Origin: a virus
DNA length: 23,960 nucleotides
Virus record (IMG/VR): IMGVR_UViG_3300031963_000923
Span: 1 to 23,960 of that record
Strand: one strand, 5' to 3'
Positions within the stretch are counted from its first letter, which is position 1. Each line of letters begins with the position of its first letter. Shown piece by piece: positions 2,137 to 12,312 of the stretch. The notes under the pieces are model-generated. The model was given only the letters and a program-made list of their open reading frames with translations. It ran no database searches and was not told the origin of the DNA. A program made the position numbers and the translations under genes.

Positions 2137-2165
2137 TTGCTATTGCATGGGACTCTTGCCATTAT
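2137..2165 (+). promoter_or_regulatory. Reiterated small-gene promoter, copy 1
   Basis: TTGCTA (2137-2142), 17-bp spacer ending CTCTTGC, CATTAT (2160-2165); TGC before the -10 makes it an extended -10 promoter. It is the first of six promoters sharing spacing and the CTTGCCATTAT core. It should drive the genes at 2224 and 2582. Confidence 0.75.
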
Positions 2166-2169
2166 ACTG

Positions 2170-2223
2170 GTGTGCGGCGGCAATGAGGCAGCCACACAGC
2201 AACCTGACCGGGAGATTAGAACC
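2170..2223 (+). promoter_or_regulatory. Leader copy 1: 5' hairpin plus ribosome-binding segment
   Basis: GTGT (2170-2173), a 2-nt bulge and GGC (2176-2178) pair with GCCACAC (2191-2197) across a 12-nt loop. AACCTGACCGGGAGATTAGAACC follows from 2201, with GGGAG as Shine-Dalgarno, then ATG 2224. The hairpin begins at the predicted transcription start. Confidence 0.65.
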
Positions 2224-2523
2224 ATGACTACTGCCGCGCCCCTCTTCATCCGCTCCGAGACCCCTACCATTCTTGCCATGGGTCTTGCCTCCAATATGCT
2301 CGGCCTATTGGTAAACGGTCCCAACTCTGTGATTCAAGAGATTGTTCGTGAGCGCCTGCTTGACAATAGCGGCGAGATGGCGCAGCTCCTGCACAATGAG
2401 CTGATGGCTGGTGATGCCACAGACACACAACGTACCGCTGTTATTGTGGCAAACTTTGTTCGCCATCTTTTGCAGACCACTGTGCGGGAGACTCAAGAAA
2501 AGATGGATTGCCGGGGCTTCTAA
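2224..2523 (+). CDS. Uncharacterised small early phage protein
   Basis: 99 residues, not recognised. ATG 2224 is fixed by the GGGAG of leader copy 1. The sequence is predicted mostly helical, with no cysteine clusters and no TM segment beyond a moderately hydrophobic stretch around ILAMGLASNMLGLLV (residues 15-29). The C-terminal half (TAVIVANFVRHLLQTTVRET) looks amphipathic. It is the first gene of the leader-bearing block and is followed after 58 nt by a gene with a promoterless copy of the same leader, so the two are probably co-transcribed. Confidence 0.75.
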   Translation: MTTAAPLFIRSETPTILAMGLASNMLGLLVNGPNSVIQEIVRERLLDNSGEMAQLLHNELMAGDATDTQRTAVIVANFVRHLLQTTVRETQEKMDCRGF

Positions 2524-2531
2524 CATTTCAC

Positions 2532-2581
2532 GGGGTCAGTCAACCGGCTGGCCCCAACCACCTGATCGGGAGAACAGGACC
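2532..2581 (+). promoter_or_regulatory. Leader copy 2: promoterless hairpin plus ribosome-binding segment
   Basis: GGGGTCAGTC (2532-2541) pairs with GGCTGGCCCC (2546-2555) over ten positions (two G-T wobbles) around the loop AACC. Then comes CACCTGATCGGGAGAACAGG and ATG 2582. No -35/-10 precedes it; the upstream stop codon is only 8 nt before the stem. The hairpin is therefore internal to a transcript here. Confidence 0.7.
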
Positions 2582-2932
2582 ATGCCGAACCGCACCTTCT
2601 ACGAGTGGGACGTAGAGACTTTTGTGGAATATGACGGCACCGATGATGAGGACATTATCGACCACAGCCACAGCGAGACCGTTGCCACCCTCTTGCCAAT
2701 AGTGGCGCACCCTGACTGTGCCGCGCCCGAGGGATATGAGCAGGGCACCGTCAAGGCTCGGCTAGTACTGGTGCGCGATGTGTTTGATGACGCCGAGATC
2801 CTTGTTCACCGCGCGTGGGCCTACGTCGATGATGGGGAGTTGCCTGCTGAGTTCGACGATGGTTGCAAGGTTCCGGTGCGGTTCCACCGTGAGCTGGAAT
2901 CAGCGCAAAAAAACTTTTGGATTCCCTCTTGA
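2582..2932 (+). CDS. Uncharacterised acidic phage protein, paralogue of the 3553 gene product
   Basis: 116 residues, ATG 2582 set by leader copy 2. Strongly acidic N-terminal half (VEYDGTDDEDIID). It aligns along its length with the first ~115 residues of the product at 3553: FYEWDVETFVEYDGTDDE against CYDWVSELVELHDDGVDE, and the C-terminal pattern YV-x4-LP-x2-F-x2-G-x3-VP-x6-E. Function unknown. The last codons (AAAAAAACTTTTGG at 2907-2920) double as an AT-rich element upstream of the next promoter, and the TGA stop lies inside that promoter's -35 hexamer. Confidence 0.75.
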   Translation: MPNRTFYEWDVETFVEYDGTDDEDIIDHSHSETVATLLPIVAHPDCAAPEGYEQGTVKARLVLVRDVFDDAEILVHRAWAYVDDGELPAEFDDGCKVPVRFHRELESAQKNFWIPS

Positions 2933-2957
2933 CATATCCTGCCCCTCTTGCCATTAT
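2929..2957 (+). promoter_or_regulatory. Reiterated small-gene promoter, copy 2
   Basis: TTGACA (2929-2934, perfect consensus), 17-bp spacer ending CTCTTGC, CATTAT (2952-2957), extended -10 TGC. The TGA of the upstream gene (2930-2932) is inside the -35. AAAAAAACTTTTGG at 2907-2920, 8 nt upstream of the -35, recurs at the same distance from the 5295 promoter. Confidence 0.85.
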
Positions 2958-2963
2958 TCTGGT

Positions 2964-3013
2964 GTCCGGCAGCACTGAGGTTGCCGACCTAACCTGATCG
3001 GGAGAACAGGACC
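2964..3013 (+). promoter_or_regulatory. Leader copy 3: 5' hairpin plus ribosome-binding segment
   Basis: GTC-c-GGC (2964-2970, bulged C) pairs with GCCGAC (2983-2988) across a 12-nt loop, starting 7 nt after the -10. AACCTGATCGGGAGAACAGG and ATG 3014 follow. Confidence 0.7.
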
Positions 3014-3220
3014 ATGTACAAGTTCCGCGTTGTTGAGCAGCACAAGTTCCTCACCGGCCACATGGCTGGCATGACAATAAAGAGCGAGTTTCCGATCTGC
3101 TCTCTCAGCGACTACAACGTGGAGAAGGAGGTCGGCAAGGTCTGGAGGTCCCTGTTCAGCAGTACGATGGGGCGGTTTGACAAGTACGAAGTGGTCAGCG
3201 CGCGGATCGTGAAACTCTGA
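3014..3220 (+). CDS. Uncharacterised small early phage protein
   Basis: 68 residues, not recognised; ATG 3014 set by leader copy 3. Mixed alpha/beta-looking, slightly basic, with VEKEVGKVWRSLFSS in the middle and a strand-like end (YEVVSARIVKL). No metal-binding pattern or membrane segment. The next gene has a promoterless leader 6 nt beyond this stop, so the two probably form one transcript. Confidence 0.75.
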   Translation: MYKFRVVEQHKFLTGHMAGMTIKSEFPICSLSDYNVEKEVGKVWRSLFSSTMGRFDKYEVVSARIVKL

Positions 3221-3226
3221 ACCATA

Positions 3227-3283
3227 GCCCGGGGCCAGCCGGATTGCTGGCCCCGGGCATCACCTGAACGGGAGAACAGGGCA
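3227..3283 (+). promoter_or_regulatory. Leader copy 4: promoterless perfect 13-bp hairpin plus ribosome-binding segment
   Basis: GCCCGGGGCCAGC (3227-3239) pairs with GCTGGCCCCGGGC (3246-3258) with no mismatch around a 6-nt loop, followed by CACCTGAACGGGAGAACAGG and ATG 3284. No promoter precedes and no U-tract follows, which argues against both initiation and intrinsic termination here. An RNA-processing or stability element is the likelier reading. Confidence 0.75.
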
Positions 3284-3475
3284 ATGTCAAAGGAAATCAA
3301 CTACAAGGTCGGCGAGCAGGTTTGGATTGTTGGCTACTACGACCGGCCCTCGCGGATGTGGTGGGCCTTCTACCGGGACGCCGAAGGCAACCAGATCGGG
3401 GACGCATGGTTTGATCCCTGCCGCGACATTCTGCTGCTGATCCGCCCCGACGTCCCGGCATTGGTTGCCTCTTGA
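3284..3475 (+). CDS. Uncharacterised small aromatic-rich phage protein
   Basis: 63 residues, not recognised. Unusually aromatic (WIVGYYDRPSRMWWAFYRD), beta-rich in appearance; QVWIVGYY and AFYRDAEGNQIGDAWF resemble a compact SH3-like or barrel fold, which is a guess. Ends VAS-stop with the TGA (3473-3475) inside the next promoter's -35. Start set by GGGAG in leader copy 4. Confidence 0.7.
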   Translation: MSKEINYKVGEQVWIVGYYDRPSRMWWAFYRDAEGNQIGDAWFDPCRDILLLIRPDVPALVAS

Positions 3476-3500
3476 CATAGCTCGCACCTCTTGCCATTAT
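3472..3500 (+). promoter_or_regulatory. Reiterated small-gene promoter, copy 3
   Basis: TTGACA (3472-3477), 17-bp spacer ending CTCTTGC, CATTAT (3495-3500). The stop codon of the preceding gene is within the -35. It should drive the genes at 3553, 4146 and 4515. Confidence 0.85.
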
Positions 3501-3503
3501 TGT

Positions 3504-3552
3504 GGTGTCAGCGCCTCTGCTGGCACCATCACCTGAACGGGAGAACAGACCA
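3504..3552 (+). promoter_or_regulatory. Leader copy 5: 5' hairpin plus ribosome-binding segment
   Basis: GGTGTCAGC (3504-3512) pairs with GCTGGCACC (3519-3527), 9 positions with one G-T wobble, loop of 6 nt. CACCTGAACGGGAGAACAG follows, then ATG 3553. Confidence 0.75.
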
Positions 3553-4143
3553 ATGGCGCGTGAGATTTGCTACGACTGGGTGAGTGAGCTGGTAGAGCTG
3601 CACGATGACGGTGTTGATGAGACGCTAGAGCAAGAGTACGCAGCCACCTACGCACAGGCCCGCCAGTCAGCCCGAGCCACGATTGAGCGCGAAGGAAGCC
3701 AACACCCTGACCTGATGTTTGAGGATTTCGTTGGGTTGGTCCGCTACATCATCGTTGATGGGCAGGTGCAGGAGACCGAGAGCGTGTATGTGCAACAGGA
3801 CAACCGGCTGCCTCACACCTTCTTGTCAGGTGCCGCCGTGCCGCTCAAGTATCGCAAAGAGGTGGACACCTTCCACCGCCGCGTAGACTGGGACCGGTAC
3901 GAGGCGGAAACCTCAGTTGACCGGTTAGTCACTGAGTACGATCAGGCGCGCCAGCAGGTAGACACCAGCCGCCAGCTTGCGAACTGGGCTGGCAATCAGC
4001 GGCGGGGTGGCTACGAGGAGCGCGAATACTTCTACGATATGGGGCAAGCGCACCGCGCCGAGATGCAGCGTGCCGAGGACCGCATGGCCGCGATTGGGCT
4101 GCGGCTAGATGCGCTGATGCAACGTCACGCTGAGGAGGCGTAA
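3553..4143 (+). CDS. Uncharacterised phage protein with coiled-coil C-terminus, paralogue of the 2582 product
   Basis: 196 residues, ATG 3553 set by leader copy 5. Residues 1-~115 are related to the whole of the 2582 product (see there). Residues ~120-196 are an added charged helical region (DRLVTEYDQARQQVDTSRQL, later AEMQRAEDRMAAIGLRLDALMQ) predicted to form coiled coil. No catalytic motif is visible. The next gene starts 2 nt after its stop, and GAGGAGG inside its own 3' end provides that gene's ribosome-binding site. Confidence 0.75.
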   Translation: MAREICYDWVSELVELHDDGVDETLEQEYAATYAQARQSARATIEREGSQHPDLMFEDFVGLVRYIIVDGQVQETESVYVQQDNRLPHTFLSGAAVPLKYRKEVDTFHRRVDWDRYEAETSVDRLVTEYDQARQQVDTSRQLANWAGNQRRGGYEEREYFYDMGQAHRAEMQRAEDRMAAIGLRLDALMQRHAEEA

Positions 4144-4145
4144 GG

Positions 4146-4481
4146 ATGACGACCAAGTACGTGAAGTGGCTGCGCGCGACTGAGGAAACCATCCGCGCAG
4201 ATTGTCAGGAGGCGCAGGCGTTGCTGGAAAGTGTCCGCCGACTCAAAGCGGGATGGCTGGGACCCGCCGAGCTGGGCGCGGATGGGATGCCGCTGGACCG
4301 TGAGGCGGCACGGGCGAATGCGGTGCATAGAGCATGGCAGGCAGTGATCGCGGCGGAGCTGGATGCGGAGGCGCTCTGCCGGTCCTACCGGGCGATTCTG
4401 TCGCGTCTAGATCGTGGCGAGAGGCCCTTTCTATTGGATGACGACTCTATATATTCCAACCTGCCGGTCGGGCCTATCTGA
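4146..4481 (+). CDS. Uncharacterised helical phage protein
   Basis: 111 residues, not recognised; ATG 4146 preceded by GAGGAGG. The sequence is highly alpha-helical and Ala/Arg/Glu-rich up to residue ~95 (QEAQALLESVRRLKAGW, AWQAVIAAELDAEALCRSYR), with a flexible acidic end (LLDDDSIYSNLP). Translationally coupled to the preceding gene and 33 nt upstream of the ERF gene, so an accessory recombination role is possible but only by position. Confidence 0.7.
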   Translation: MTTKYVKWLRATEETIRADCQEAQALLESVRRLKAGWLGPAELGADGMPLDREAARANAVHRAWQAVIAAELDAEALCRSYRAILSRLDRGERPFLLDDDSIYSNLPVGPI

Positions 4482-4497
4482 TCGGTCTATCAACCCC

Positions 4498-4514
4498 AAC
4501 GGGAGAACGGGAGA
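4498..4514 (+). promoter_or_regulatory. Partial leader copy 6 (ribosome-binding segment only)
   Basis: AACGGGAGAACGGGAGA directly before ATG 4515 repeats the CGGGAGA core twice. It keeps the Shine-Dalgarno part of the leader but has no hairpin and no promoter. Confidence 0.5.
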
Positions 4515-5255
4515 ATGAAAACCAGCAATAGCATCGGGGCACTGGCCCCGGCCCTCGTCGCCGCCGCCGCCGAGCTTGCGCCAGTGGCAAAGGACGCGGT
4601 GAACCCGGCGTTCCGGAACCGGTACGCCACGTTGGACGCCATCATGGAACAGGTGCGCCCAGTCCTTGCGCGGCACGGGCTGGCGGTCATGCAGACAGGA
4701 TCTACGCCGGAAACAGTGGACGGGCGGCTCATGGCGGTCGGGGTCGAGACGATGCTTCTGCACAAGTCGGGCGAATGGATCGCCAGCAGTGTCACCCTCC
4801 CGGTTGAGAAGCTGACCGCGCAGGGTGCCGGAAGCGCCCTCAGCTACGGGCGGCGTTATGGCCTTTCTGCCATCCTCGGGCTCACGGCGGAAGATGATGA
4901 CGGGCAAGACGCCTCCGCGCGCCCGGTGGCTATTCAGGCCCCCAACAGCGCACCGGCGGCAGTGGAGCCCGGGCAGCGCCTCTATTCCAACGTCCCAGAC
5001 ACCCCGCGCGCCAAGCCATTCAGCGGGGACGTGAACGAGGCGATGAGCTGGAAGTTGCCGTTCAAGAAGTCCAAGTTCTACAACGTGGCGTTGCAGGACA
5101 TTCCCGAGAACGAACTGGAAAAGCTGCTAGAGTTCGTGCGCCGGGACCCTGAGAAGTTCAAGGACATTATCGCGCGGGTCGAGACCGTGCTGGAGGCATG
5201 GACCGGCATGGCCGCGAACGCCGAGGCTGAGGAGCGGGACGACCTGCCCTTCTAA
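4515..5255 (+). CDS. ERF-family single-strand DNA annealing protein
   Basis: 246 residues. The ERF signature is clear: NPAFRNRYATLDAIMEQVRP (30-49), HGLAVMQ (54-60), LLHKSGEWIASSVTLPVEK (81-99) and the hallmark GSALSYGRRYGLSAILGLTA-EDDDGQDA (106-133). ERF proteins anneal complementary single strands during phage recombination and genome circularisation or repair. Residues ~140-180 are a Pro/Ala-rich linker. A separate helical C-terminal domain follows (KFYNVALQDIPENELEKLLE onward). The protein ends EERDDLPF, which resembles the C-terminal tip of bacterial SSB proteins (DDDIPF). It is third in the unit driven from 3472. Confidence 0.92.
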   Translation: MKTSNSIGALAPALVAAAAELAPVAKDAVNPAFRNRYATLDAIMEQVRPVLARHGLAVMQTGSTPETVDGRLMAVGVETMLLHKSGEWIASSVTLPVEKLTAQGAGSALSYGRRYGLSAILGLTAEDDDGQDASARPVAIQAPNSAPAAVEPGQRLYSNVPDTPRAKPFSGDVNEAMSWKLPFKKSKFYNVALQDIPENELEKLLEFVRRDPEKFKDIIARVETVLEAWTGMAANAEAEERDDLPF

Positions 5256-5257
5256 TG

Positions 5258-5323
5258 TGAAGAACAAATAATAAAAAAACTTTTGGGGACCCTCTTGCTA
5301 TTGGGGGTCCCTCTTTGCATTAT
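5258..5323 (+). promoter_or_regulatory. Composite reiterated promoter, copy 4, with AT-rich repeats and inverted repeat over the -35
   Basis: TTGCTA (5295-5300), 17-bp spacer, CATTAT (5318-5323). Upstream lie the 15-mer TGAAGAACAAATAAT (5258-5272, identical to 2111-2125) and AAAAAAACTTTTGG (5273-5286, identical to 2907-2920 and at the same distance from the -35). GGGACCC (5286-5292) and GGGTCCC (5305-5311) form a perfect 7-bp inverted repeat bracketing the -35. That repeat could be an operator, or a terminator for the ERF transcript, since TCTTTGCATT follows. Confidence 0.75.
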
Positions 5324-5326
5324 TGT

Positions 5327-5380
5327 GGTGTCCGGCGGCACCAAGGCAGCCGACACCAACCTGATCGGGAGACCAGACCA
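5327..5380 (+). promoter_or_regulatory. Leader copy 7: 5' hairpin plus ribosome-binding segment
   Basis: GGTGTC-c-GGC (5327-5336, bulged C) pairs with GCCGACACC (5349-5357) over nine base pairs, 12-nt loop. Then AACCTGATCGGGAGACCAG and ATG 5381. Confidence 0.75.
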
Positions 5381-5806
5381 ATGCTCAAGACCACGACGAC
5401 CCCCGCCTACCTGACCACCCAGCCCGTTGTGGCAGAGTTCCCGGCCTACCGGATTGTGGCGGCGGACCTGACCCGCGAGTTCCAGTACGGCGAGCAGTTT
5501 GCGGTGCCTTACGAGAGCGGGCGGTACGGCACGATGTACCGGATGTACACCCTTGGCTCAGTGGCCGGATACGCGGCGGACTACAACGAGGACCCCACGG
5601 CGGCGGTGGAGCGGGCGCGCGCGCGCGGCGAGGAGCTGTACTGGGCGAACCAGAACTCGACCATGCTGACCGCGTGGGACCGCCCGCAGGAGACCTTCCC
5701 GATGGTGCAGTACGGCGATGTGATCCGGTTCGCTGGCAAGCAGTTCTTCCTTGATAAAGCGAACAACAACAACATCGTGCTGGTTGAGTTGCCAGCAGCC
5801 TCTTGA
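5381..5806 (+). CDS. Uncharacterised early phage protein
   Basis: 141 residues, not recognised; ATG 5381 set by leader copy 7. Rich in Tyr and Thr, with FQYGEQFAVPYESGRYGTMY near residue 35 and ATG-proximal MLKTTTTPAY resembling the start of the next gene product (MLDTIKTTTTPG) at both protein and DNA level. MVQYGDVIRFAGKQFFLDKAN looks like a small beta-barrel strand pair. Ends AAS-stop with the TGA inside the next -35. Transcribed as a single-gene unit between two promoters. Confidence 0.75.
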   Translation: MLKTTTTPAYLTTQPVVAEFPAYRIVAADLTREFQYGEQFAVPYESGRYGTMYRMYTLGSVAGYAADYNEDPTAAVERARARGEELYWANQNSTMLTAWDRPQETFPMVQYGDVIRFAGKQFFLDKANNNNIVLVELPAAS

Positions 5807-5831
5807 CATAACGCAGCACTCTTGCCATTAT
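5803..5831 (+). promoter_or_regulatory. Reiterated small-gene promoter, copy 5
   Basis: TTGACA (5803-5808), 17-bp spacer ending CTCTTGC, CATTAT (5826-5831). Stop codon of the preceding gene inside the -35. Confidence 0.85.
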
Positions 5832-5834
5832 TCT

Positions 5835-5883
5835 GGTGTCAGCAATGCGGCTGGCACCACCACCTGATCGGGAGAACAGGACT
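5835..5883 (+). promoter_or_regulatory. Leader copy 8: 5' hairpin plus ribosome-binding segment
   Basis: GGTGTCAGC (5835-5843) / GCTGGCACC (5850-5858) with loop AATGCG; then CACCTGATCGGGAGAACAGG and ATG 5884. Same arms as copies 5 and 9, different loop. Confidence 0.75.
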
Positions 5884-6252
5884 ATGCTAGACACCATCAA
5901 GACCACGACCACCCCCGGCGCGACCCCTGACGATGCGATTGATCTCAACTACGCCGACTCGTCGCGCCTTATGAAGCGTGTGCTGACCAAGGCGTTCCCG
6001 GGCACCAAGTTCGGCGTCCGGTTGAGCAGCGGCACCGGCTACGGCAACTGTTACCTACGGTGGACTGATGGCCCGACCGTGACTGAGGTGGCACAAATCA
6101 CCTCCGCGTTTGAGGGGCAGGGGTTTGATGGCTGGACGGATATGGCGTACAGCATGAGGACCAAGATCATGTATGACGCGCAGCGCAAGCAGTGGGTGCG
6201 TCCGCGCCTGCGAATGATTCTTGAGCAGCGCGACCGCTCCGCAGAGTCTTGA
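5884..6252 (+). CDS. LPD29-like domain protein (large polyvalent protein-associated domain 29)
   Basis: 122 residues. LMKRVLTKAFPGTKFGVRLS, then YLRWTDGPTVTEVAQITSAF and GFDGWTDMAYS match the pattern I associate with LPD29 (x-L-K-x-A-F-P-G-x-K-F-S-V-R, WTDGP-x3-EV, F-x-G-x2-FDG-x-x-D). That domain occurs in phage and mobile-element polyvalent proteins and as a stand-alone ORF, and its biochemical role is unknown. The start is set by leader copy 8. It ends AES-stop inside the next -35. The assignment is from memory of the motif, without a database search. Confidence 0.7.
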   Translation: MLDTIKTTTTPGATPDDAIDLNYADSSRLMKRVLTKAFPGTKFGVRLSSGTGYGNCYLRWTDGPTVTEVAQITSAFEGQGFDGWTDMAYSMRTKIMYDAQRKQWVRPRLRMILEQRDRSAES

Positions 6253-6277
6253 CATTCTCTGCACCTCTTGCCATTAT
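6249..6277 (+). promoter_or_regulatory. Reiterated small-gene promoter, copy 6
   Basis: TTGACA (6249-6254), 17-bp spacer ending CTCTTGC, CATTAT (6272-6277). Stop of the preceding gene within the -35. It is the last copy, and probably reads into the long overlapping operon from 6329 onward. Confidence 0.85.
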
Positions 6278-6280
6278 TCT

Positions 6281-6328
6281 GGTGTCAGCGATCCGGCTGG
6301 CACCATCACCTGAACGGGAGACAGACCG
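6281..6328 (+). promoter_or_regulatory. Leader copy 9: 5' hairpin plus ribosome-binding segment
   Basis: GGTGTCAGC (6281-6289) / GCTGGCACC (6296-6304) with loop GATCCG, then CACCTGAACGGGAGACAGACC and ATG 6329. Relative to the other copies, two bases are missing between GGGAG and the start. Confidence 0.75.
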
Positions 6329-6547
6329 ATGGCACAGCACCAGATGCAGCAGATGACCGTAGAAGCTCTTGAGCAGTGGGCCGAGGAGTTGGCGGCGTTC
6401 ATTCAGGCATGGGACCGCCCGTCCAGCCGCTGGCACCGCGATGTGGATACGGGCGGGCTTGTGTTGGATGCGGCCGAGCAGAAGTTGCGGCAGGTGCGCG
6501 AGGAGCTCGGGTTTCGCCGTGCGGCGGCGTGGGAGGTCAACGTATGA
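6329..6547 (+). CDS. Uncharacterised small helical phage protein
   Basis: 72 residues, not recognised; ATG 6329 set by leader copy 9. Almost entirely predicted helix with two segments (VEALEQWAEELAAFIQAW and AAEQKLRQVREELGFRRAAA) joined by a Trp/His/Asp-containing turn. Its stop overlaps the next start (ATGA). It heads the operon that runs without a gap larger than ~65 nt to the terminase. Confidence 0.7.
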   Translation: MAQHQMQQMTVEALEQWAEELAAFIQAWDRPSSRWHRDVDTGGLVLDAAEQKLRQVREELGFRRAAAWEVNV

Positions 6548-6747
6548 GCCGCCGCCGTCATCTGATGAACCCGGCCGATGATTGGGTTCCGTTGCCCCGT
6601 GATCCGGGCACCCGGATGCGGCAGTTCCCAGCCCTGTGCGGAAAGCTGCTGACGATTGTGCCCATGCTGGAGACCTCACCCGGGCAGTCGATCTGCCAGC
6701 ACTGTGAGGCGCTGGGGGCGGCGATGGGGCTGGAGGCTGTGCCGTGA
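6544..6747 (+). CDS. Small putative zinc-binding phage protein
   Basis: 67 residues, ATG 6544 overlapping the previous stop. Contains ALCGK (Cys32) and SICQHC (Cys50, Cys53), a CxxC knuckle plus an upstream Cys, reminiscent of the half zinc ribbons in small actinophage proteins. MNPADDWVPLPRD is the other conserved-looking segment. A shorter start at ATG 6565 is possible. Function unknown. Both ends overlap neighbours by 4 nt, which supports it as a real gene despite its size. Confidence 0.65.
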   Translation: MSRRRHLMNPADDWVPLPRDPGTRMRQFPALCGKLLTIVPMLETSPGQSICQHCEALGAAMGLEAVP

Positions 6748-8513: not shown

Positions 8514-8976
8514 GCGCCCGTCATGGCCAGCCAGCCGACCGCTGCCGGACTGGATGGTGCGCGCACGGGCCAAGGAGCCGGGAGCTTCCACGCCGCGCGC
8601 CAAGCCCAAGCACCTAGAAGCGGTGGAACAGCGGCTGTTCATTCAGCGGGTGCGGCTGGACCCGCTGACGCGCGACTTGCCGTGCTGTGCCATCCCGAAC
8701 GGTGGTGCGCGATCCGCCCGTGAGGCCGCACTCCTCAAGGCCGAAGGCGTCACGGCGGGTGCCCCGGACTGGATGCTGTTTGCCGCGCGGGGGCCGTTTG
8801 TTGGGCTGGCACTGGAGTTCAAGAGCCCAACCGGGCACGGGCGTATATCGGAGGCGCAGAAAGCCTTCCACGACCGGTTGCGTCAAGAGCGATGGTCAGT
8901 TCATATTGTCAAGACTGCCGCTGAAGCATGGGCGGTGCTTACCACCTACCTGTTAGGAGTAATACCAGATGCCTGA
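8506..8976 (+). CDS. VRR-NUC domain nuclease (Holliday-junction-resolvase-like)
   Basis: 156 residues, ATG 8506. The PD-(D/E)xK core of phage VRR-NUC proteins is evident: EQRLFIQRVR (41-50), AIPNGGARSAREAALLKAEG (62-81), GAPDWML (85-91, Asp88), LALEFKSP (101-108, Glu104 and Lys106), ISEAQKAFHDRL (114-125, Gln118). VRR-NUC proteins cut structured DNA such as flaps or junctions. In phages they occur in replication/recombination or pre-packaging modules. It fits the ERF annealing protein upstream. The ~35-residue basic, Pro-rich N-terminus is extra. Confidence 0.88.
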   Translation: MPKRPSWPASRPLPDWMVRARAKEPGASTPRAKPKHLEAVEQRLFIQRVRLDPLTRDLPCCAIPNGGARSAREAALLKAEGVTAGAPDWMLFAARGPFVGLALEFKSPTGHGRISEAQKAFHDRLRQERWSVHIVKTAAEAWAVLTTYLLGVIPDA

Positions 8977-9301
8977 CGAGTTGCCGGACCTTTCGATTGC
9001 GGAAGCGGCCACGTTTATCGGCGTATCGCGCGCGCGCATTTATCAGCGGGTTACCGGTCGAGCGGGGCAGTGGCCTGCCGGTCGCCCGTTGCAGTCCATC
9101 ATGCGGGAGACCAAGCGCCCCGGCACCAAGGATGGCCAACAGCGCCGGATCAGTATTGCGGATGCGCTGGCATGGCGCATGGAGCGCGAGGTGAAGCAGC
9201 AGCCGGTTGGCCCCATTACTCCGCACATGGATGCCCTGCTGGCCAAATACCGAGAGGCTACAAGTGCCCCGGTTGGGATGCCCACCATTCAGCCGTTTTG
9301 A
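8969..9301 (+). CDS. Helix-turn-helix DNA-binding protein
   Basis: 110 residues, ATG 8969 overlapping the nuclease stop by 8 nt, with AGGAG 11-15 nt upstream. LSIAEAATFIGVSRARIYQRV (8-28) is a MerR/excisionase-type HTH; RRISIADALAWRMEREV (59-75) looks like the matching strand-helix that reads a nucleotide-binding pocket in such proteins. It could be a transcriptional regulator of middle or late genes or an accessory DNA-binding factor. No dimerisation domain is seen. Confidence 0.7.
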   Translation: MPDELPDLSIAEAATFIGVSRARIYQRVTGRAGQWPAGRPLQSIMRETKRPGTKDGQQRRISIADALAWRMEREVKQQPVGPITPHMDALLAKYREATSAPVGMPTIQPF

Positions 9302-9350: not shown

Positions 9351-9536
9351 ATGCTGTCGTTCCTGACACTCCCTGATGTGCCGCCGTATCAGCCAACCAA
9401 GCCGCTGCCCGTCATCCAAACCTATCGGGCGCAATCCCACGGGCGCACCATTGAATCCCGGGTGCATCTGTCGCACCTCGCAGAGGTGGTCATGGCGCGC
9501 CTGATGGTCCAAACCTATGCCCCTGAAACTGTCTGA
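9351..9536 (+). CDS. Small uncharacterised phage protein
   Basis: 61 residues, ATG 9351 with GGAGG 4 nt upstream (9342-9346). Pro-rich beginning (LPDVPPYQPTKPLPV), then HGRTIESRVHLSHLAEVVMA. Its TGA overlaps the next ATG (TGATG). Not recognised. The strong ribosome-binding site and overlap support expression. Confidence 0.6.
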   Translation: MLSFLTLPDVPPYQPTKPLPVIQTYRAQSHGRTIESRVHLSHLAEVVMARLMVQTYAPETV

Positions 9537-10060
9537 TGCTGCAATACCTACCCATCACGCGCGTGCGCGGAAACCCGAAGAACCCGCGCGTTGTCAAGGA
9601 TGAGCGATTCCACAAGCTGGTGCAAAGTGTCAAGGATTTCCCTGAGATGCTGGAGCTTCGCCCGATTGTAGTGGACGCGGACTTTATGGTGCTGGGCGGC
9701 AATATGCGCCTTAAAGCCTGTCAGGCGGCGGGCCTCACTGAAATCCCGGTCTTGATTGCGGATAGCCTGACCGAAGCGCAAAAGAAAGAGTTCGTCATCA
9801 AGGACAACGTCAGCACCGGCACGTTTTCATGGTCCACCTTTTTTGACACGGGCGATGACTGGGACGTGCATGAGCTACAGGACTGGGGCCTTGAGCTGCC
9901 GTATTCCCCAAACATTGACCCCAGCTTTTCCCGGGATGAGGTCACAGACAAGGACATCGCCACGGCCGACCAGAAGCTGACCACCAAGTTCAATGATCGG
10001 CAGGAGCTACGCGAAGTGACGTGCCCTCATTGCGGCGAGGACTTTGGCATTGACCAGTGA
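9536..10060 (+). CDS. ParB-like N-terminal domain protein
   Basis: 174 residues, ATG 9536. ParB/sulfiredoxin-like domain at residues 5-~100: NPKNPRVVKDERFHKLVQSV (13-32), LRPIVVDADFMVLGGNMRLKA (41-61), AGLTEIPVLI (65-74), then EFVIKDNVSTGTFSW (85-99), typical of stand-alone phage ParB proteins that precede DNA methylases or PAPS-reductase-like enzymes. The domain binds or hydrolyses CTP in chromosomal ParB. In phage versions the activity is unproven. A CPHC motif near the C-terminus (163-166) may bind metal. It is the first gene of the ParB / PP-loop enzyme / ParB group. Confidence 0.85.
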   Translation: MLQYLPITRVRGNPKNPRVVKDERFHKLVQSVKDFPEMLELRPIVVDADFMVLGGNMRLKACQAAGLTEIPVLIADSLTEAQKKEFVIKDNVSTGTFSWSTFFDTGDDWDVHELQDWGLELPYSPNIDPSFSRDEVTDKDIATADQKLTTKFNDRQELREVTCPHCGEDFGIDQ

Positions 10061-10337: not shown

Positions 10338-10414
10338 TCGCCATTTTGCTCGGGCACCGGATCGGAGGCAGCCCCATGTACGTGGGACAGGTGGCCAATC
10401 ATGCGGATCTATAA
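10334..10414 (+). CDS. Possible 26-residue peptide bridging two genes
   Basis: ATG 10334 overlaps the previous stop (ATGA) and the frame runs to TAA 10412-10414, 14 nt inside the next gene. The product would be MIAILLGHRIGGSPMYVGQV and six more residues. The fit to both overlaps and the absence of any other gene in this 63-nt gap favour it. No Shine-Dalgarno is evident, and 26 codons can be open by chance. Confidence 0.3.
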   Translation: MIAILLGHRIGGSPMYVGQVANHADL

Positions 10415-11561
10415 CCACGCCAACGTATTGGAAGCCGCGCAGCAGCGGATTGCGTGGCTGTTCGACGAGTTTGAAAACGTGGTCGTGCATTGCAGCGGCG
10501 GCAAGGATAGCACTGTGGTGCTCAATCTGGCGCTGGCTGAAGCTGAACGCCGGGGGCGGCTCCCGCTGCCGGTCATGTGGCTAGACCAAGAGATGGAATG
10601 GCAAGCCACGGCCGATATGGTGCAGGCGGTTATGGAGGACCCGCGCGTAGAGCCGCGTTGGTTTCAGATCCCTTTCCAAATGCCGAACAGCACGTCGGCA
10701 GAGGCATGGATCAAAATCTGGGACGCCGACCGGCCTGACTTGTGGATGCGCCCAAAATGGGCGCGCGCATACACAGAGAACATCTTTGGCCCCGGGGAGG
10801 ACTTCTATAGCCTGTTCCAAGCAATCCGGCGGCATTTCTACCCTGATAGTTCCTGCGCGACCATTGGAGGCGTTAGGGCGGAAGAGAGCCCCGGTCGAGC
10901 GGCAGGGCTGACGAGTTTTCCGACCTATAAGTGGGTGACGTGGGGGACCAAGGAGGACCCCAAGCGGGGGCATTACAACTTCTACCCCATCTACGACTGG
11001 ACGTACCGGGACGTGTGGAAGGCCATTCATAGCCACGGCTGGCCGTACTGCCGGATCTATGACCAGATGTATCAGTACGGCTACCACATACAGGATATGC
11101 GGGTCAGCAACCTGCACCATGAGACCGCCGTCAAGCATTTGCGGTTCATGCAAGAGATTGAACCGGTAACGTGGGAGAAGCTCACCCGCCGCATGAAGGG
11201 CATCAACACCGTCAAGCAGCTCAAGCAGTTTGCGTCACAGACCCCTAAAGAGCTGCCGTGGATGTTTTCTGATTGGAAAGAGTACCGGGATTTCCTGCTG
11301 CCGCGTTTGGTGCATGACCCAACCACCCAGCACAACCTTGCCAAAACGTTTGCGGCCTTTGACAAGAAGTACGTTGACATGAAACGACCTGACCTTCGCC
11401 ACAAGGTTGAGGTGGCGTCCATCCTGACCCAAGACGGGGACGTGATGACCAAGATGAAGAACTGGGAGATTTCACCACCGGTTGGCACATGGCGCAAATG
11501 GAAGCGCGGCGATGCGATCCGGCCTGAGTTCCTCCGCACGAACCCCTACATCAATGGATGA
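10401..11561 (+). CDS. IbrA-like PAPS-reductase-family (PP-loop) enzyme
   Basis: 386 residues, ATG 10401. The PP-loop SGGKDST (32-38), which binds ATP or PAPS pyrophosphate, is intact. GGVRAEES (156-163) and YPIYDWTYRDVWKAI (195-209) are the other adenylyl-sulfate reductase / DndC-family motifs. The long C-terminal region (NLHHETAVKHLRFMQEIEP and beyond) fits IbrA/DUF3440-type proteins of E. coli and phages. There is no catalytic-cysteine tail typical of true PAPS reductases (ECGLH), so an ATP-pyrophosphatase or nucleotidyl-transfer chemistry is likelier than sulfate assimilation. The gene overlaps an IbrB-like gene, the known partner arrangement. Confidence 0.88.
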   Translation: MRIYNHANVLEAAQQRIAWLFDEFENVVVHCSGGKDSTVVLNLALAEAERRGRLPLPVMWLDQEMEWQATADMVQAVMEDPRVEPRWFQIPFQMPNSTSAEAWIKIWDADRPDLWMRPKWARAYTENIFGPGEDFYSLFQAIRRHFYPDSSCATIGGVRAEESPGRAAGLTSFPTYKWVTWGTKEDPKRGHYNFYPIYDWTYRDVWKAIHSHGWPYCRIYDQMYQYGYHIQDMRVSNLHHETAVKHLRFMQEIEPVTWEKLTRRMKGINTVKQLKQFASQTPKELPWMFSDWKEYRDFLLPRLVHDPTTQHNLAKTFAAFDKKYVDMKRPDLRHKVEVASILTQDGDVMTKMKNWEISPPVGTWRKWKRGDAIRPEFLRTNPYING

Positions 11562-12312
11562 AGCCCTCACCGCCGTGCTGGAGGCCCTCCGCGCGTTGCC
11601 GGAATCTGCGCGTCTGGCCGGAATAGAAAGGGTGCGGGATGCCCTGCACCAGCTTTCCCCGCTTGCTACCCAGCCGGTGGACCGGGTGCGCTGGGTGCCG
11701 GTTGAAGAGGTGGACCCCAACGACTACAACCCCAACTCAGTCGCCGGGAAAGAGATGGGCTTGCTGTATACCTCTATCAAGCATGACGGCTACACCCAGC
11801 CGGTGGTGGTGATCCGCGATGAGGCCAAGGGCAAATACGTCATCGTTGATGGGTTTCACCGCTATTTCACCTGTAAGAGCAACCCGGACATTTACGAGCG
11901 GAACCGTGGTCGGTTGCCGGTCGTGGTGATTGAGAAGAGCATCAACGACCGGATGGCCTCCACCGTGCGGCACAACCGAGCCCGGGGCGAACATTCTGTA
12001 CAGGGCATGGCCAACATGGTCTTTACCATGCTGGACAACGGCTGGAGTGACGCCGCCATCTGCAACGAGCTGGGCATGGAGCCGGAAGAGCTGCTGAAAC
12101 TGAAGCATATCACCGGCTTTTCTAAACTCTTTGAGGACGTTGCGTATCAAAAATCGTGGGAATCTAAAAATCAGATCCGGCTACGAAAGGAATGGCAAGC
12201 CCGAGAAGCGGCAGGTGAGGCGCTCCAACCGGACAGCCTCAAGCGCGATCCTAAGCAGATGAAAGCAGCCAAGGAGGCGGCTAATGACAAGAGACAAAGC
12301 GGGACAACGTAA
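11554..12312 (+). CDS. IbrB-like ParB-domain protein
   Basis: 252 residues, ATG 11554 overlapping the end of the IbrA-like gene by 8 nt. Residues 45-~140 are a ParB domain of the IbrB subtype: VEEVDPNDYNPNSVAGKEM (50-68), DGYTQPVVVI (78-87) and the hallmark YVIVDGFHRY (95-104), then STVRHNRARGEHS (136-148). An HTH-like region follows (WSDAAICNELGMEPEELLKL, 164-183), and the C-terminus is Lys/Ala-rich. In E. coli, IbrA and IbrB together raise expression of prophage eib genes. The molecular mechanism is not known to me. It overlaps the terminase small subunit gene by 29 nt. Confidence 0.87.
   Translation: MDEALTAVLEALRALPESARLAGIERVRDALHQLSPLATQPVDRVRWVPVEEVDPNDYNPNSVAGKEMGLLYTSIKHDGYTQPVVVIRDEAKGKYVIVDGFHRYFTCKSNPDIYERNRGRLPVVVIEKSINDRMASTVRHNRARGEHSVQGMANMVFTMLDNGWSDAAICNELGMEPEELLKLKHITGFSKLFEDVAYQKSWESKNQIRLRKEWQAREAAGEALQPDSLKRDPKQMKAAKEAANDKRQSGTT

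Follow-up and report, generated by a model that had tools for sequence, protein, structure and literature searches.

The window analysed here, i.e., the whole 23,960 nucleotides (nt) taken from the viral record IMGVR_UViG_3300031963_000923, belongs to a viral contig of 40.9 kb and is identical to the contig locus L053 over the 13,252 bases of their overlap. Between positions 2137 and 6331 its plus strand carries six near-identical units, each placed before a small open reading frame (ORF). The order within a unit is a -35 box, a 17-base-pair (bp) spacer, CATTAT, a hairpin, the segment CACCTGAWCGGGAGAACAG and ATG, and a complete unit takes about 90 bp. The ORFs downstream of these elements mostly lack a known family, the exceptions being ERF, an LPD29-domain protein and two PHROGs of unknown function.

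An earlier note, made from the letters of the window, had placed six promoters here, and all six are found at those positions. Four have the -35 box TTGACA (2929–2957, 3472–3500, 5803–5831 and 6249–6277) and two have TTGCTA (2137–2165 and 5295–5323), while the spacer is exactly 17 bp and the -10 box CATTAT in 6 of 6. Five promoters have CTTGCCATTAT in common; the one at 5295 has CTTTGCATTAT. The units are tightly packed because the four TTGACA boxes hold the TGA stop codon of the upstream gene. We set the transcription start (+1) 7 nt after the -10 box, so that all +1 positions, in the window and in its relatives, are predicted ones. Each of the six RNAs folds into a hairpin from this first base, in agreement with the stem-loop proposed at about +1. 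Three hairpins are of type A (2172–2197, with an orthologous fold in the relative L054, 2964–2988 and 5330–5354) and three of type B (3507–3524, 5838–5855 and 6284–6301). The DNA repeat of type B extends 4 bp upstream of +1 (3503–3528, 5834–5859 and 6280–6305). The loops are not conserved in the window (TCAACC, GCCTCT, AATGCG, GATCCG).

The hairpins are followed by a leader with a Shine-Dalgarno (SD) sequence and the ATG of an ORF of 99 (2202–2226, beginning ACCTGACCGGGAGA), 68 (2992–3016), 196 (3531–3555), 141 (5359–5383), 122 (5862–5886, the LPD29-domain protein) or 72 amino acids (6308–6331). Two further leaders, reported at 2561 and 3263 as having no promoter (2560–2584, ATG of a 116-amino-acid ORF, and 3262–3286, ATG of a 63-amino-acid ORF), do lack one, but the promoter is all that is missing: strong intergenic hairpins precede them at 2532–2555, 8 nt past the stop codon of the upstream ORF, and at 3227–3258, with a perfect 13-bp stem. 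The ERF single-strand annealing gene (4515–5255) has a degraded copy, as had been noticed, in its leader (4492–4517), which gives a weak covariance-model match. The core string CTCTTGCCATTATTCTGGTGTC, running from the extended -10 to the stem, occurs exactly six times in the window with at most 3 mismatches (0.00 expected). The leader string CCTGAWCGGGAGA, with at most 2 mismatches, occurs 10 times (1.2 expected), and nine of these matches are leaders, including the degraded copy at 4494, which bears out the conserved segment described before the start codons. Another hairpin, holding the SD within its loop (CCUG/CAGG), was rejected: the window leaders have it, but relatives have not retained it. 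The cassette region has few terminators, and most units are without one of their own. At 5285–5312 an intrinsic-terminator-like repeat (GGGGACCC...GGGGGTCCC-TCTTT) has the -35 box of the promoter at 5295 in its loop, so that terminator and promoter overlap; positions 6580–6615 and 8765–8805 of L054 resemble this repeat.

The same arrangement recurs in eight relatives, one of them present as near-duplicate contigs. Searches with ERF retrieved L054 (86% identical), L055 (69%), L056 (59%) and L073–L080 (66–71%), among which L075 is a near-duplicate of L073 and L078 of L077. A promoter scan that ignored folding found units before small ORFs in L054, L055, L056, L073, L074, L077 and L079, usually two or three per relative (the second one of L056 having TTTACA/TATATC), whereas L076 and L080 have one unit each, with a weaker -35. 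The shared architecture is a TTGAC-type -35, a spacer of 16–18, a -10, a hairpin at the predicted +1, an SD and a start codon. In all 21 tabulated units, drawn from eight loci with promoters picked by sequence alone, the hairpin begins at base 1–3 of the predicted RNA and the start codon lies 41–52 nt from +1, about 20–28 nt from the end of the stem. The spacer and loop vary, while the -35, extended -10, stem and leader are kept. The stems have completely different sequences between lineages, yet they covary. The earlier note's central proposal, a distinct multi-copy cassette of promoter, transcribed hairpin and ribosome-binding site before small genes, thus holds beyond the window, with lineage-specific sequence. 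In a covariance-model scan of the kind it suggested, the model (R1), built from the window and L054 on an RNAalifold structure that did not reproduce the +1 hairpin, gave clear matches in these two and a borderline one in L074, but no wider sequence match; the sequence similarity is therefore lineage-specific and the architecture wider. Among cultured phages we found no similar DNA except a 93-bp coding match, the ERF and terminase matches being distant, and species genomes searched by ERF yielded no relative.

We compared the hairpins with chance expectations. A minimum free energy of at most -8.4 for +1 to +28, combined with a paired 5' end, is reached by 19 of the 21 units and by 12% of random windows from the same loci. 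Among 64 sites resembling promoters in unrelated viral contigs, 2 reach it; only 7 of the 64 are GC-rich, with 1 reaching it, so this control is small. The mean shuffle z is -2.7 for +1 to +28 and +0.6 for +29 to +56. Stem starts peak at the predicted +1, where the folding energy also has its minimum.

The changes among hairpins show on which strand the repeat is read. Eight hairpins from L073, L074, L077 and L079 can be aligned on an invariant hexaloop, UAGCCG (TAGCCG in DNA). In their stem, 6 of the 8 pairs have changed on both sides, 93.8% of the cells pair (27–58% in slid versions), and the covariation score was reached by 0 of 500 shuffles. Among the type B and promoterless hairpins of the window, 2 of 9 pairs are double-changed. 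Base pairing rather than sequence is thus conserved in these two sets; this is not seen for type A alone. Over 26 hairpins, mismatched arm positions are G.T (i.e., G.U) in 11 cases and A.C in one; as many of these hairpins are related copies, the independent events are fewer, perhaps 6 versus 1. Such a bias is expected of a hairpin formed by the sense RNA and has no reason to arise in a DNA palindrome. The sequence comparison thus indicates a hairpin in the RNA, with the sense RNA as the paired strand, and not an operator in the DNA.

We think it reasonably likely that the unit combines a sigma-70 early promoter with a 5'-terminal stem-loop that shields the end of the mRNA, the SD being kept single-stranded. 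The structure in this proposal comes from the sequence comparison, and the function from analogy with known leaders. Each cassette would be a self-contained early expression signal for a host sigma-70-type RNA polymerase. Its transcript would start with a stem-loop of about 18–26 nt at the predicted +1, followed by a short single-stranded stretch with the SD and the start codon. The stem-loop would protect the message from decay that depends on access to the 5' end (by a pyrophosphohydrolase together with enzymes of the RNase E/J type) and keep the SD from pairing upstream, with short single-gene messages that are long-lived and well translated as the outcome. The promoterless copies could provide the same 5' or intergenic hairpin for the gene that comes second in a unit, perhaps once the transcript is processed. 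The equal and independently timed expression that had been proposed for the cassettes is unsupported; from six sigma-70 promoters so nearly identical, the same timing would be predicted. Several observations weigh against the stabilising stem-loop. Both hairpins of L055 fold weakly (z -0.7 and -0.3), L076 and L080 have stems of only about 5 bp, and the type A stems of the window and L054 have G-U changes without any double change. Copies within a genome and orthologues of close contigs are not independent, so that the counts overstate significance. Finally, the invariant loop of one group exceeds what a pure stabiliser needs.

This loop speaks for a different role, in which the hairpin is a sequence-specific tag. 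Its transcribed loop would be recognised by a phage or host protein, or by RNA polymerase itself as at the put sites of HK022, and all early messages would thereby come under antitermination or translational control. The hexaloop has stayed fixed while most of the stem around it changed on both sides, L056 carries the related GGTAGCCGCC, and copies of the hairpin exist without a promoter. However, the window loops vary, no boxA-like element was noticed, and there are few terminators in the region, so that we consider such a tag unlikely. A more specific version, in which the 5' hairpin is a lineage-specific identity tag on early transcripts whose loop is read by a phage factor or RNA polymerase and coevolves with it, possibly together with the neighbouring noncoding RNA described below, seems to us slightly more doubtful still. 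Another possibility is a DNA operator: through the repeat at +1, a phage repressor or activator would control all early promoters, as in the conserved inverted repeats of phiC31 or the cluster K ESAS elements. A repeat over +1 is well located for a repressor, the copies are alike within a genome, and type B reaches upstream of the start. Yet the three cassettes of L074 have three different stems, the window has both types A and B, type A stems are bulged, the arms differ by G.U rather than A.C, and the repeat is kept where there is no promoter. No integrase or lysogeny repressor was recognised in the scanned proteins, the rest of the 40.9-kb contig not having been scanned; a weak HTH_17 match in this set, at 8969–9301, is below the cut-off. 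An operator is accordingly improbable in our view. That the units have no specific RNA function, being recently duplicated promoters and leaders kept as recombination homology, would fit copies that resemble each other most within a genome and gene content that differs around them, but is very improbable given that the covariation and the divergence pattern (free spacer and loop, paired stem, start at +1) call for selection on structure.

Units are most alike within the genome in the window, L054, L055 and L077, and between orthologues in L073, L074 and L079. The gene content between the anchors (the noncoding RNA, the 196-amino-acid ORF and ERF) differs among relatives. A 61-amino-acid ORF lies after ERF in L054 (8862) and its relative before ERF in L079 (7017), each with a unit, and the 196-amino-acid ORF, preceded by a full unit in the window, has in L054 a hairpin without a promoter. 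These differences fit units that travel with genes, and cassettes acting as modular joints, i.e., homology points for shuffling, are plausible from the sequences compared. As about 90 bp make up a whole unit, which overlaps the stop codon of the gene before it, small genes could be gained, lost or moved with their own cassette. One 182-amino-acid frame of L073 corresponds to two frames in L074 (7457–8001) and L079 (7457–8001).

Just upstream of the cassettes lies a conserved noncoding block of about 340 nt (1764–2110, core 1864–2036), with its own promoter (1736–1763) and a 5' hairpin. It is found in every relative, at L054 6301–6481, L055 6927–7098, L056 4727–4905, L073 6083–6254, L074 6587–6757, L076 1545–1722, L077 7098–7269, L079 6666–6835 and L080 6178–6354. 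With 10 relatives, RNAalifold predicted 46 pairs, 27 of them changed on both sides; within the core, such double changes affect 14 of 27 pairs, and 95.9% of the cells pair, compared with 33–46% in slid versions. The block is probably a new structured phage RNA. It matched no Rfam family, among 81 loci its model has matches only in this phage group, a pattern scan of viral contigs returned the same contigs, and a single strict pattern had no match in species genomes; it may represent a new class. Pairing between this RNA and the leaders was rejected as a general mechanism: z is as low as -2 to -3 for some copies of the window and L054 but averages -0.4 over 20 leaders, and a complement of the UAGCCG loop is present in the noncoding RNA of one locus only. 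Immediately before this RNA, a terminator-like hairpin conserved in relatives (1695–1722) ends the lysis-gene transcript. Elsewhere in the window, adjoining the terminase, two ParB_N-domain proteins flank a PAPS-reductase/DUF3440 protein (9536–10060, 10401–11561, 11554–12312), an unusual set possibly involved in DNA or nucleotide modification. At its two ends (L089 527–1160 and L090 11070–11703) the 40.9-kb contig has tail-gene sequences that resemble each other without being identical, so that this may be a complete genome whose ends are variant.

If the proposed role is right, this uncultivated phage group has adopted a single plug-in start unit as the standard for its early small genes, with promoter, stabilising hairpin and ribosome site fused and inherited as a whole. 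This would explain how small phage genes are able to move and are expressed at once, and the units would provide natural covarying replicates of a 5' stabiliser in which the rules of such hairpins can be tested.

Searches of open-access papers returned no description of this arrangement, but several known systems share part of it. The put RNA antiterminators of HK022 and the lambda nut boxB place a hairpin close to where early transcripts have their 5' end, as here; the cassettes differ by their single short stem-loop, their many copies and the lack of any boxA that we noticed. Like phage morons, they serve small variable genes with their own sigma-70 promoter, one of which overlaps a terminator-like repeat, but here many genes share one and the same leader, and a terminator of their own is missing from most units. 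In contrast to phiC31 CIR-type operators, the duplex sequence is not the same at all sites of one genome. Stem-loops at the 5' terminus that stabilise mRNA are established (Emory 1992 and the recA and vacA cases, as cited in PMC7509114), and the leader of T4 gene 32 has one too (as cited in PMC8948821). The cassettes resemble the Escherichia coli ompA and T4 gene 32 leaders in having a stem-loop at or near the 5' end (at the predicted +1 in 21 of 21 units) and a free SD downstream. These are single leaders, whereas here the stem-loop is fused to a promoter, reiterated on many small genes and covarying, with a stabilising role that we infer.

The nearest design is that of the start-associated SAS/ESAS elements of cluster K mycobacteriophages, to which those of cluster EF phages are similar (PMC7302621). 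Both these elements and the cassettes are multi-copy, stand before small non-structural genes and combine a SigA-like promoter, an inverted repeat and a strongly conserved SD segment abutting the start codon, with a lineage-specific consensus and some genes that have the SD part only. The cluster K elements had been contrasted with the cassettes as lacking a promoter, but each Adephagia ESAS contains SigA-like -35 and -10 hexamers (PMC11373665), and the Adephagia sequence agrees. That the sequences are unrelated was correct: the 13-bp SAS is GGGATAGGAGCCC and the leader here CCTGAWCGGGAGAACAG, and the covariance model from the leaders has no match in Adephagia (L104). In the Adephagia ESAS an inverted repeat of 12–17 bp spans the DNA from -35 to -10; among seven elements, we found it over the promoter in six and, by this search, not at gene 36. 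Except at gene 92, the folding of the Adephagia RNA downstream of +1 is weak, and RNA pairing in cluster K SAS/ESAS was judged unlikely or unsupported by Pope 2011 (PMC3203893). In the cassettes the repeat begins close to +1 (at -4 at the earliest), is predicted to be transcribed and covaries as RNA. They are thus similar to the cluster K elements in place and in the genes served without being members of that family, and, if our reading is right, two look-alike designs can be separated: in cluster K phages a DNA repeat that covers the promoter, and here an RNA hairpin at +1.

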